Source: Mycoplasmataceae bacterium
Lineage (GTDB): Bacteria > Bacillota_I > Bacilli_A > Mycoplasmatales > Mycoplasmoidaceae
Length of the DNA stretch: 5,377 nt
NCBI GenBank assembly: GCA_031278855.1
Contig: JAITJR010000056.1
Coordinates: 1-5,377 of the forward strand
Direction: 5' to 3'
The notes below the pieces were generated by a model. It was not told where the DNA came from, did not search any database, and saw only the letters and a list, made by a program, of their open reading frames with translations. The translations under genes and the position numbers were made by a program. This document shows positions 1,708 through 5,377 of the stretch, in pieces. Each line of letters starts with the position of its first letter. The stretch's first letter is position 1.

Positions 1708-2472
1708 ATGATTAAAGCAGCTAAACAAAAATTACCGTTCACTCATGCATTAGTGGTTCATAAATTAAATGCCTACACTACTAATATTTTCGGCAAATCT
1801 CGTCATCGTTTGTTGTTTAATGTGAGTTTCAAAGTACCAACTGGTAGTATGTGTACTTTCATTGGGCATAACGGTGCAGGTAAGACTACTACCGTTAAAT
1901 CATGTTTAGGTTTGCGTGCGATTCAATCAGGCAAAATTACTATTAATGGAATTGATAGTAAGAATATTTTAGCTCGTCAGAGAGTCGGTTATATTACAGA
2001 AAAATGTAATTTAGAAAAAATTACAGCTCGTGATTTTTTAATTGAAGCTGGTGCTTTCTATGGTTTGAATGAACAGCAAACTTTACAAAAAGCATATCCT
2101 TTACTAAAATTTTTCGGTTTACTCCGTGATCGTCTGAATGTTAAGCTTAATAAGTTATCATCTGGTCAAAATAAAGTCATCACTATTATTCAAGCTTTTT
2201 TAGGAGATCCTTATTTAATCATTGCCGATGAACCTACCGATAATTTAGACCCTGAAACTAGGGACATTTTTTGAGAATTTGTTCATCAATATCATCAAAA
2301 ACACCCTTATGCAACTTTCTTTTTGATTACTCATAATTTGGATGAAATCGAAAAATACACCGATCACTTAGTATTTTTAGATCATGGTCACATAAAAAAA
2401 GAAATGGGTCATGATCGTTCGGCTGGATTAAGAGAAATGTATCGTAAATTGCGTCATAAATGAAGGATATAA
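1708..2472 (+). CDS. ABC transporter ATP-binding protein (ABC-2 exporter ATPase)
   Basis: This 254-residue cytoplasmic nucleotide-binding subunit should hydrolyse ATP to drive the permease encoded just upstream. All core motifs are present in order: Walker A GHNGAGKT at residues 53-60, a Glu at the Q-loop position (E98, as in many drug-exporter ATPases), signature LSSGQ at 150-154, Walker B LIIADEP at 170-176, D-loop NLDP at 179-182, and the switch His in ITH at 207-209. The signature has Ser where LSGGQ has the first Gly, a tolerated variant. Two UGA codons are read as Trp (W189 and W252). With a standard code the protein would stop between the D-loop and the switch His, so the UGA reading is well supported. 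The gene ends at a TAA at 2470-2472. The start is two bases after the permease stop with only a weak GAG upstream. Drug, bacteriocin or lipid export are all possible. Confidence 0.93.
2463..2466 (+). promoter_or_regulatory. Ribosome binding site that decides the pth start
   Basis: AAGG (extending to AAGGA at 2467) lies eight bases before the GTG at 2475, inside the last codons of the ATPase gene. It is too far from the ATG at 2487 and lies inside the coding sequence for the ATG at 2460, so it favours GTG 2475 as the pth start. Confidence 0.6.
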
Positions 2473-2474
2473 CT

Positions 2475-3056
2475 GTGTCTATATACATGATTGTCGGGTT
2501 AGGTAATTATCCCGAGCAATATCGTAACACAAAACATAATGTTGGTTTTATGGTAATTGATAAATTATGCCAATCATTATCGTTAGAATTAACTAACCAT
2601 AAATTTAATGGTTACTTTGTAAAAGTAGCGGTTGAAACTCAACAATTTATCATTGCTAAGCCATACACATATATGAACTTATCTGGTGATTTTGTTAAAG
2701 ACATATGTCAGTTTTATCAAATTCCGCCACAAAATATTTTGGTGATCCATGATGATGCTGATAGTAATATTGGCACAATTCGAGTACGAAGTAGCGGTTC
2801 GTCTGGTGGGCAAAACGGAATAAAAGACATTATTAATAAATTAAATACTGATAATTTTAACCGAGTAAAAATTGGGATTGGTCGATCCAATAATAGAAAT
2901 ATTAGTTTGGCGGATTATGTTTTAACTCCGTTTGGTAACATTGAAAAATCTGTCATCAATCAAGTCATTGGTAAAGCGGTGGAACTATTAATTGATTTTA
3001 TGAATGGTGCTTCCGTGCAAGATTTAATGAATCATTACAATATCACAGTCAAATAG
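2475..3056 (+). CDS. pth: Peptidyl-tRNA hydrolase
   Basis: This 193-residue cytosolic esterase releases tRNA from peptidyl-tRNA that has dropped off the ribosome. Family motifs are seen in order: IVGLGN (6-11), TKHNVGF (19-25) with the catalytic His at H21, the YMNLSG block with N68, IHDDAD (91-96) with D93, and GGQNG (111-115) with N114. N68, D93 and N114 fall at the same numbers as in the E. coli enzyme, and the length is normal. Two oddities stand out: the usual GLGNPG reads GLGNYP, and the His before N114 (H113 in E. coli) is Gln. I chose the GTG start because AAGG lies eight bases upstream and the start then follows the ATPase stop by two bases, like the other junctions here. Alternatives are ATG 2460, overlapping the ATPase by 13 bases, and ATG 2487, giving 189 residues. 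No Trp codon occurs. It is last in the operon, upstream of a terminator. Confidence 0.95.
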   Translation: MSIYMIVGLGNYPEQYRNTKHNVGFMVIDKLCQSLSLELTNHKFNGYFVKVAVETQQFIIAKPYTYMNLSGDFVKDICQFYQIPPQNILVIHDDADSNIGTIRVRSSGSSGGQNGIKDIINKLNTDNFNRVKIGIGRSNNRNISLADYVLTPFGNIEKSVINQVIGKAVELLIDFMNGASVQDLMNHYNITVK

Positions 3057-3075: not shown

Positions 3076-5001
3076 TTAAATGTTGTAGTAGTTGACTTTA
3101 GCTTGAGTCAACATTTTTTTCATCAATTTTTTATATTCAAGTTCCTTGGCATTCGTTGGTTTGAAGTCTTGGTAAAAAACAAAGTAAGGATTAATTTGGA
3201 TTACAAAGTCAATGTTGTGTACATTTACATTGCTACAGACAAAACGGATACCGATTTTCTTAAGATTATTAACATTGGTTACGATGTTATGTAAATCTAA
3301 TTTAGGATTTAGAAAATTTAGATTCAATAATAAAATAATTTGACGAGCTGATAAATCAAAATGTGATATTTTACTATAAAAAATTTGGGTAGAAAAATTG
3401 GGATCTAATAGTGATTCAATGGGATAGTGCGTCATTAATAGTGTATGTTTATTCTCACTAGTCGAAAAATGTTGCAACGCTTTGGCGGCCAAATGTTTAA
3501 TCATGATCGGTCTTAAATGCTGGGGGGTGATACGAATAATGGTTTCGGTATTAAAAGCAGTCAATTTTAGTAAACTAAAAATTGGAAAAACAATTTTTTG
3601 ATCACGGTAGTTAATAACATGGGCTTTTAGTTGAATTTGATTAATATCTACCAATTGTTTGAGTCGTTGAAATTGCTGCATATCATAGCGTGATGTAAAT
3701 TCAATTTGAGGATTAAGTAATTGGACGAGATTGTATTCACATTTTGGTTCAAACGATTGAATCATATTTTCAAGATTGTGAATTAAGTTAAAGATATTAT
3801 TATCATGAACACCATATAAACTGACAAATAAATTATTTTGAAAACTAATTTTGACGTTTTGAAATTCAAATGGTGTAATTCGAAATGATTCAAATTGTGC
3901 CAAAAGATCATGGCTTTTTCGTTTTTTTAAATAATTATCATCACTCATAGTTTTTAAATTTTTAGTAATTTGGACGTTAGCTTTTAGTAACACAAAAAAT
4001 AAATCATTTTCACTCATGAATAATAATTTATCTTGATAATCTTTAAAAAAATGGTTAATTTGAACAGCAACATGTTCGTTAATTTGATTTACTAGACGAC
4101 TTCCGAAAGTATGGGTTGTTGTTTTCATATTTTTTATTGAAAACCCAATCACGTAAGCATATTGAATGTTTTTAGTTTGAATAAATTCGTTGATTGCTTG
4201 TTGTACATAATTTGCAACAATAAAATATTTATAGTTGTAAGCTACCTGTACATTCATGTGTCGTGCTTTTTGGTAAATCCGATTTATATAAGTCATGACA
4301 AGCCATGACAAAAAAATAAATAATTGTAAAATTGCCGAAGTAATTCAAAGCTCATGTTGCAATTCGAGCGAAGGCATTTTCAAAGCATAATTGATTATGA
4401 CCACTAAAATGAATTGACCAAAGATAAAAATGGTGTGAGCAGTAATGATTTGGAATATTTTGGCCAGTTTTGGCAAAAAATAAAAGATACATAATGTGAT
4501 TACAACATAAATTACATAGCTTGTAATCACATATGTAGCAGAAATATTGGTCAAGTGAAATAATGAGAAAATACCAATTAACATGGCAATAATGCCACCA
4601 ACACCAAAATATGGACTAGTATAAAATACACCAGGCAAAACGATTAGCACAATTGCTACAGCATTAATCATTGAACTATCAACATTGGTGGAAGCTAAAA
4701 AAAATGTCACAAAAAAAATTAAGCTTAAAATAGCTCCTACCGCCACATCGATGAATGGTCAAAGTCGTTTTTTGCATAAGACATGTCGTTGGTAAAAAGT
4801 TGCATTTCTAATTGTAAGAGTGATGGTAAATATTAAAATAGTAAATAATAGTGCGATCACATTACACATGAATACATTGCTGAAATAATAATTACTCATC
4901 TCCATAATTATAAAATGTAAAGTCTTACAAAAATAATGTTGTAAAAGATTTGCTATATGATTGGTTTTACGAAGTTTTTTTGATCGATAAGATTTTGTCA
5001 T
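3076..5001 (-). CDS. Membrane-anchored protein with degenerate GGDEF and EAL-like domains
   Basis: About 641 residues, read as one gene through two UGA-Trp codons (plus-strand positions 4759-4761 and 4345-4347). Seven hydrophobic segments lie near residues 45-65, 87-105, 111-128, 131-150, 157-178, 183-207 and 219-239. Residues 109-150, with Pro-Gly and a Ser-Pro-Tyr-Phe-Gly turn between helices, recall 5TMR-LYT sensor domains. Residues 280-410 follow the GGDEF layout: a beta strand with GFSIKNMK, then TFG, an amphipathic helix, and SENDLFFVLL where RxGGDEFxxLL is expected. Residues 435-615 follow the EAL layout: ITPQHLRP like the I-x-P-x-x-F-I-P block, and HYPIESLLDPNF like the VNxSxxxLxDPxF block. 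FSL (475-477) stands where EAL is expected, and the DDFG metal site is absent. The domain assignment is by pattern only. Catalysis is unlikely; nucleotide binding or scaffolding is possible. The start is uncertain: ATG 5001 is used, with ATG 4905, 4899 or 4869 as alternatives, none with a good Shine-Dalgarno. Confidence 0.78.
3091..3120 (+). terminator. Rho-independent terminator of the plus-strand operon, inside the opposing gene
   Basis: GTTGACT (3091-3097) and AGTCAAC (3106-3112) form a perfect 7-base-pair stem with an eight-base loop. One A and then seven T (3114-3120) follow. The element starts 35 bases after the pth stop and works only in the plus direction, because the other side has no T-run. 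It lies within the last codons of the minus-strand GGDEF-EAL-like gene, so the same bases also encode that protein's C-terminus (residues TQAKVN). Confidence 0.72.
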
Positions 5002-5008
5002 ATATAAT
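4980..5008 (+). promoter_or_regulatory. Promoter for the exported-protein gene at 5069
   Basis: A perfect -10 hexamer TATAAT is at 5003-5008, preceded by TTGATC at 4980-4985 with the ideal 17-base spacer. Transcription would start near 5015 and leave a leader of about 54 bases before the ATG at 5069. The element overlaps the presumed start of the divergent minus-strand gene. Confidence 0.6.
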
Positions 5009-5053
5009 ATTGGTACTTTGTCATAGGAAATATATCTGCCATTAAATAAGGTA

Positions 5054-5062
5054 GGGGAGGAG
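5054..5062 (+). promoter_or_regulatory. Strong Shine-Dalgarno site for the gene at 5069
   Basis: The purine run GGGGAGGAG contains a full GGAGG (5056-5060), eight bases from the last G of that core to the ATG at 5069. It is by far the strongest ribosome binding site in the window and fixes this start. Confidence 0.85.
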
Positions 5063-5068
5063 TGTTTT

Positions 5069-5377
5069 ATGTTCAAACACAACAAATTATTAAAAAGAAT
5101 CGGTTTATTTTCAGTTATTGGAGTAACTGGAAGTTTAAGTACCCTTTTAATTTTAAATAATGTTACTTACAGTAACTCAATCATTACAACTCAATCATCT
5201 CGAACAACGACTACAGGGATGCAAGCGGTTGGTGAAAACGACGATCCGTATCCAAGCGCTATCACTGGTAATAATGTATTAGACATGTCATCTGAGAAAA
5301 GTGGCACTGCCACATTTGATTGGTATGCCATTGATCCTTATTCAAATATTATCAATTTATCTACATGGGGTAACTTC
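5069..5377 (+). CDS. N-terminal part of an exported protein with a signal peptide (3'-truncated)
   Basis: The frame is open for 103 codons from a well-supported ATG to the right edge of the window. The N-terminus is a classic signal peptide or signal anchor: a basic start MFKHNKLLKR (1-10), a hydrophobic core at about 11-29, then a polar Asn/Ser/Thr region. No Cys follows the core, so it is not a lipoprotein; cleavage or anchoring cannot be decided. The early mature part is rich in Ser and Thr, typical of a surface-exposed Mollicute protein, and there is no recognisable domain yet. Both Trp codons seen (5321 and 5366) are UGG, with no UGA. It has its own promoter and strong ribosome binding site, diverging from the GGDEF-EAL-like gene. 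It could belong to the same family as the truncated exported protein at the left edge, but the two visible parts do not overlap, so this cannot be tested here. Confidence 0.82.
   Translation, partial: MFKHNKLLKRIGLFSVIGVTGSLSTLLILNNVTYSNSIITTQSSRTTTTGMQAVGENDDPYPSAITGNNVLDMSSEKSGTATFDWYAIDPYSNIINLSTWGNF

Follow-up and report, generated by a model that had tools for sequence, protein, structure and literature searches.

The gene on which this report centers lies in the stretch of DNA that we analyzed (the window, 5,377 bases, which is the entire contig C86 of an 895-kb assembly that is 79% complete), and its product is predicted to have seven membrane helices, then a GGDEF fold and then an EAL fold, the catalytic residues of both folds being lost. 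We tentatively propose, with a probability of about 0.4, that this product regulates the diadenylate cyclase (DAC), the c-di-AMP synthase, without being an enzyme itself. A role in the c-di-AMP system is suggested because the gene directly precedes the DAC gene in many relatives, and a close rival is that this gene order is simply inherited and surrounds a sensor of unrelated role. The window carries the following features.

1708-2472, plus strand: ABC transporter ATPase (PF00005, 1.7e-23), a neighbor outside the system.
2460-3056, plus strand: peptidyl-tRNA hydrolase (PF01195, 2.1e-62), the convergent neighbor.
3076-4899, minus strand: likeliest coding sequence, 607 aa, with predicted seven transmembrane helices, GGDEF-like and EAL-like domains and UGA read as Trp (judged by the ATG of relatives, database entry P0003 and dN < dS).
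3079-3669, minus strand: predicted EAL-like domain, residues 445-641, catalytic residues lost and last barrel strand missing.
3712-4245, minus strand: predicted GGDEF-like domain, residues 253-430, with the GGDEF motif replaced by SENDL.
4282-4893, minus strand: membrane domain, residues 37-240, seven helices predicted by two models and by hydropathy.
4345-4347, minus strand: TGA read as Trp codon W219, Trp in six of six sequences (the window protein and its five closest relatives).
4759-4761, minus strand: TGA read as Trp codon W81, Trp in four of the same six sequences.
4900-5001, minus strand: open 34-codon N-terminal extension, probably upstream of the true start (unaligned to close relatives, low model confidence).
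5069-5377, plus strand: start of a divergent protein with a signal-like N terminus (open frame, without Pfam match).

Under translation table 4, the minus strand from 3076 to 5001 is a single open frame of 641 aa, with TGA at W81 and W219, and a frame of 641 codons free of TAA and TAG would arise by chance with a probability of ~2e-17 at the base composition of the window. The original prediction had proposed just such a long UGA-Trp frame, which a standard-code annotation would split in three, and table 11 indeed yields pieces of 411 aa (3076-4311), 133 aa (4345-4746) and 108 aa (4759-5085), while one entry of the protein database (P0002) is a 393-aa piece of the window protein. The bacterium likely reads UGA as tryptophan. 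As for the start, residue 35 (ATG at 4899) corresponds to the first ATG in four of the five closest relatives. In the fifth, G185, whose row was trimmed at its presumed start prior to alignment, the frame is open further upstream, yet database entry P0003 begins at the point of residue 35. The likelier gene is therefore 3076-4899, and the 34 N-terminal residues may be untranslated. By eye, no clear ribosome-binding site precedes either ATG of this gene.

The gene lies tail to tail with the peptidyl-tRNA hydrolase, which occupies the place held by the DAC in many relatives, and head to head with the protein that has a signal-like start. Shortly 5' of the ATG of the latter (window 5040-5068, plus strand) there is a GGGGAGGAG-type stretch that by eye looks like a strong ribosome-binding site for this divergent, secreted-looking protein, unlike what is seen for the GGDEF-EAL-like gene. 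Scans of the window for Rfam families, tRNAs and tandem repeats returned nothing.

The window protein belongs to a family that spans the order. A first search found relatives in 35 of 198 genomes of the order, and a 39-member profile then detected the family in 96 of 320 genomes, which represent 27 of 50 genera. This answers the search for orthologues in related Mollicutes that the original prediction had suggested; the counts from the profile, like the neighborhood survey below, retain weak and truncated matches. Alignment A3 was built without L029, which lies at a contig end, and alignment A4 without L065. Named members come from Spiroplasma poulsonii and S. phoeniceum. A contig search with an alignment of f5 members found three Spiroplasma loci, and the same kind of search with the window protein found nothing. 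In the protein database, the window protein had three matches, all hypothetical or unnamed, among 7997 scored candidates sharing most words with it, and the family profile matched seven of 7998 scored candidates. When 247 genomes of the class were searched (order included), the matches listed from outside the order spanned the GGDEF-EAL part only, with at most 66.7 bits versus 534 for the window. Among the matches listed, the full architecture thus appears to be confined to the order in the genomes sampled.

Within residues 37 to 254, the model and hydropathy (with segments merged by eye) agree on seven membrane helices, in line with the "about seven" of the original prediction. Folded alone, the membrane domain had no Foldseek match at an E value of 0.001. 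It is weakly similar to ECF S-components, whose fold has six helices, but the score lies within the helical-bundle range of the tool and designed proteins reach a similar Z; this likeness was kept out of the mechanism proposed below. A match to NfeD_membrane in 1 of 38 members (E values of 0.012 and 0.0017, below cut-off) was dropped as chance.

Beyond the membrane domain, comparison of the predicted structure with solved ones reveals a GGDEF fold and then an EAL fold, the domain order anticipated at the outset, and the best matches are GGDEF-EAL crystal structures; structures of LapD (6pwk and 6pwj) and FimX are among the matches. The predicted EAL barrel of the window protein is incomplete since the protein stops at the AEGVE strand and the final strand is absent. 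The EAL end is truncated in 16 of 39 members, and many f5 members cover the EAL profile to position 234 of 236. Among the first 30 family members (window included), with E values up to 1, Pfam EAL matches 15 (best 1.7e-22), and the NCBIfam models for RimA EAL, LapD and CsrD match 13, 12 and 8, respectively. Taken as a single sequence, the relative L016, from an f5 genome, finds as its best PDB match Bacillus subtilis YkuI (E 8.6e-5), a soluble protein that retains the EAL signature; the match covers 217 residues, and no GGDEF-like domain was aligned. The family profile matched a profile of four GGDEF-EAL proteins with 98.7% probability (E 2.7e-16 over 389 columns), a test that is not independent because these four proteins had been retrieved by the family profile itself. 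The profile-profile comparison suggested originally is therefore positive when the family relatives are included, and falls short of significance for the window protein with its five closest relatives (E 0.011, 3.7%). Searched by itself, the window protein is not significant either: the single sequence shows no EAL (PF00563) or GGDEF match at E up to 1, and no Pfam or NCBIfam family above cut-off. Our assignment of the window protein to the GGDEF-EAL fold superfamily, as a predicted GGDEF fold followed by a predicted EAL fold, accordingly rests on bridging relatives and on the modeled structure.

The link to c-di-AMP comes from gene order. Of the 320 genomes of the order, 220 have a detected DAC (PF02457). 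Outside the taxonomic family f5, 55 genomes carry the protein family, and 46 of them also have a DAC. In 29 of the 46, distributed over 12 genera of the families f1 (17 loci), f7 (6) and f11 (6), the DAC follows immediately on the same strand, the distance between the end of the family profile match and the DAC domain being 197-319 bp. In two more genomes (f8) it lies 3.5-3.6 kb downstream, and in the remaining 15 the two genes are otherwise arranged, on different contigs in 11 and on one contig in 4; these 15 include G188, G198 and G228, which lie at contig ends, and G059, G145 and G025, whose family matches are weak. In G102, one of the 4, a distance of 2.3 kb separates the two genes, which are on opposite strands. 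The assembly that contains the window (79% complete, as noted) has its DAC on another contig, C96, where a PAP2-like gene precedes it, and in this assembly MgtE gives no match above the cut-off. In the 29 linked loci, MgtE follows within three genes of the DAC in 15, and the typical order in f7 and f11 is rnr-smpB-[family gene]-DAC-(purine phosphorylase in f11)-MgtE-PLD-type protein. Here RNase R, SmpB, TrmB and PAP2 were named by eye, whereas Pfam was used to check one to three examples each of the DAC, MgtE, PLD-type and purine phosphorylase frames. The two DACs that were scanned pass the Pfam DAC threshold, and the nearest NCBIfam models are CdaM and CdaA, below the cut-offs of these models.

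Two side observations concern individual loci. L125 (G227:C4) has a tandem duplicated DAC, at 101401-101751 and 102082-102432, directly behind the GGDEF-EAL-like gene. L089 (G000:C96) shows, at both contig ends, long repetitive fragments that resemble surface proteins and by eye have a leucine-rich-repeat look.

In Firmicutes, the usual membrane partner of CdaA, and its proposed modulator, is CdaR, whose YbbR domains lie outside the cell. The family is, like CdaR, membrane-bound and encoded beside a diadenylate cyclase (in the 29 of 46 genomes above, the window's own not being one of them), but no sequence or fold relation to CdaR was seen. YbbR (PF07949) is absent from the window protein, and none of the 198 genomes searched in the order has it. 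MgtE is a target of c-di-AMP in B. subtilis, where c-di-AMP levels change together with Mg2+ under osmotic stress (PMC8844918). A locus that unites a membrane protein, a c-di-AMP synthase and MgtE fits one circuit, and because of this locus, and because CdaR (YbbR) was not found in the 198 genomes, we tentatively interpret the family as catalytically dead GGDEF-EAL proteins that would regulate the cyclase. The membrane part would sense a condition at the membrane, such as a small molecule, an ion or tension, and the two dead domains would relay the signal by contacting the cyclase or by binding a nucleotide. The output would be the level of c-di-AMP, hence ion and osmolyte balance, in a role comparable to that of CdaR for CdaA.

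The same loci can be read otherwise. The protein might serve more generally as a sensor or scaffold at the membrane, acting on something other than c-di-AMP, and stand next to DAC and MgtE as a relic of an ancestral order rnr-smpB-[gene]-DAC-mgtE; this we regard as a serious possibility, if not the one that we would choose. RNase R or SmpB is found within three genes upstream in 13 of the 29 linked loci, as an inherited block would have it, and the family gene persists where no DAC is detected (f5, g5, g7) or no MgtE is detected (g1, g3, g32). All 41 f5 genomes with the family lack a detected DAC, as do nine f1 genomes, some of them incomplete; since none of the 220 genomes with a DAC is from f5, which includes Spiroplasma, f5 may do without c-di-AMP synthesis altogether. 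MgtE adjoins the family gene without a DAC in 13 of 19 f5 loci viewed and in six of the nine DAC-less f1 genomes (four seen as neighbors and two deduced from coordinates), and in genus g32 (Spiroplasma) neither DAC nor MgtE was found (MgtE in 0 of 6). Conversely, 174 of the 224 genomes without the family have a DAC, and over the 320 genomes the association between family and DAC is negative (odds ratio 0.26, kinship left uncorrected). Several of the assemblies behind these absences are incomplete. Each thus persists without the other and neither needs the other, and an obligate dependence of the family on DAC or MgtE was rejected. Against mere inheritance of the order, genus g1 keeps the DAC link in 12 of 15 genomes (G188 is at a contig end, G000 and G167 are without link), while the upstream neighbors in these 12 loci fall, by clustering, into seven kinds. 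Across all 29 linked loci, SmpB is the commonest immediate upstream neighbor, with only 8 occurrences. The DAC link therefore outlasts the other flank. In addition, the predicted GGDEF-EAL-like and DAC frames of G201 overlap by at least 11 bp (L127, 5085-5666 and 5656-7551, minus strand), which suggests a putative single transcript.

We placed the catalytic columns through an alignment of L016 with solved EAL proteins, so that the placement depends on that alignment, and considered the residues that we take to serve phosphodiesterase activity: the metal-binding Glu of EAL, the Glu of ExTE, the two Asp of DDFG and a Lys. Across the 39 aligned members, the Glu of EAL, the Glu of ExTE and the first Asp of DDFG are each kept in none, the second Asp in one, and the Lys of KxD in none (two gaps), while the Asn of the VNxS strand is kept in 10 and an Asn stands at the position of the second DDFG Asp in 26. 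The GGDEF motif is SENDL in the window, and none of the 39 shows a canonical version of it within the aligned columns, although L065 has one AGEQF outside these columns. Neither the residue set of c-di-GMP phosphodiesterases nor the GGDEF motif of diguanylate cyclases is thus present in the aligned members.

LapD, FimX and CsrD are GGDEF-EAL proteins that have lost catalysis, and LapD and FimX are c-di-GMP receptors. The family resembles these three in having a GGDEF fold followed by an EAL fold with catalysis lost, LapD and FimX being among its structure matches, and differs from them in its seven-helix membrane part, in an EAL signature that is not kept and in a gene that is often beside a diadenylate cyclase. 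By analogy, the family could act as receptors whose EAL-like or GGDEF-like pocket takes up a cyclic dinucleotide, either c-di-AMP or c-di-GMP supplied by neighbors or the host, and which relay its signal in the way of LapD and FimX for c-di-GMP; degenerate receptors of this fold are known and a c-di-AMP synthase is nearby, but we consider this unlikely. The EAL and DDFG residues that would line a LapD-type pocket appear, from the alignment, to be replaced, with no other conserved set except the Asn at the second DDFG Asp, and members persist without a detected DAC. Nor did a search of 198 genomes of the order reveal c-di-GMP machinery: PilZ occurs in none, and GGDEF in four (one over cut-off), all of which by eye have a DHH-like motif after a degenerate GGDEF, as in GdpP, so that no c-di-GMP maker is visible in this sample.

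Pfam EAL exceeds its curated cut-off in 42 of these 198 genomes, some of the matches being to other EAL-like proteins of f4, and a c-di-GMP role was proposed for an EAL-bearing protein of another mollicute in PMC11535214. Both would suit an active c-di-GMP phosphodiesterase or cyclase within a working c-di-GMP system in Mollicutes, which on the sequence evidence we hold to be very improbable and have rejected: the catalytic Glu and Asp residues and the GGDEF motif are absent, the EAL-like domain of the window is truncated, and in the 198 genomes no PilZ was found and the only GGDEF proteins are, by eye, GdpP-like. The degenerate f4 protein is a different one of 593-600 aa (L049, 2457-4256, minus strand; L050, 1397-3187, L051, 1644-3425, and L052, 1591-3369, all plus strand), which by eye has a single membrane helix near its N terminus and which matches EAL at its C terminus (PF00563, 6.2e-11 in L049); its gene adjoins a prolyl-tRNA synthetase-like frame. 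Genomes of f3 and f11 encode further EAL-like proteins (L056, 1569-3188, and L057, 1-1524, both plus strand), near genes that by eye are for phosphate uptake (PstS/PstC-like) or two-component systems.

Equally improbable is a decaying remnant without function, which the truncated EAL ends and the 224 of 320 genomes in which the family was not found might suggest, given that frames of 500-700 codons stay open across deeply separated families, mostly as a single copy in 27 genera, and that, for the window and its nearest relative G185, dN is 0.26 and dS 1.25 (dN/dS ~0.2, dS being high). All three parts behave alike, with dN and dS of 0.28 and 1.24 for the membrane domain, 0.28 and 1.09 for the GGDEF-like domain and 0.23 and 1.61 for the EAL-like domain, where dS is again high. 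Since dN is far below dS throughout, selection keeps a dead enzyme fold in the window's clade.

In Mollicutes, the c-di-AMP network includes GdpP, which is membrane-bound, has a degenerate GGDEF domain and degrades c-di-AMP by cleavage, with DHH-DHHA1 at its C terminus (PMC5508000 and PMC10720645). The family shares with GdpP the membrane location and the degenerate GGDEF domain, but it has an EAL fold at its C-terminal end and no DHH match in Pfam scans. The coral symbiont Ca. Oceanoplasma callogorgiae, also a mollicute, has a protein (U1) that resembles the family in combining a membrane segment with an EAL match; PMC11535214 reads it as a possible c-di-GMP phosphodiesterase, and describes Mollicutes as using c-di-AMP and not c-di-GMP, except Acholeplasma laidlawii. 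Apart from this single EAL protein, neither the family nor its DAC link is described in the titles and abstracts surveyed, with few subscription journals covered.

The original prediction had left a choice between a surviving receptor for a cyclic dinucleotide and a repurposed scaffold. Catalytic loss and gene neighborhood, both read from sequence, favor the repurposed side, tentatively in the direction of c-di-AMP, which had not been foreseen. That Mollicutes, having lost c-di-GMP, retained the GGDEF-EAL architecture and made of it a dead-enzyme partner for DAC, a membrane sensor and stand-in for CdaR that sets c-di-AMP and thereby Mg2+ and osmolytes in wall-less cells, is a more doubtful proposition. 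An order-wide family of dead GGDEF-EAL membrane proteins, frequently encoded beside DAC, is a concrete candidate for the control of the cyclase without CdaR in reduced cells, and EAL annotations in the order do not imply c-di-GMP signaling. If the stand-in proposition is true, a protein of one second-messenger system would have been captured by another.
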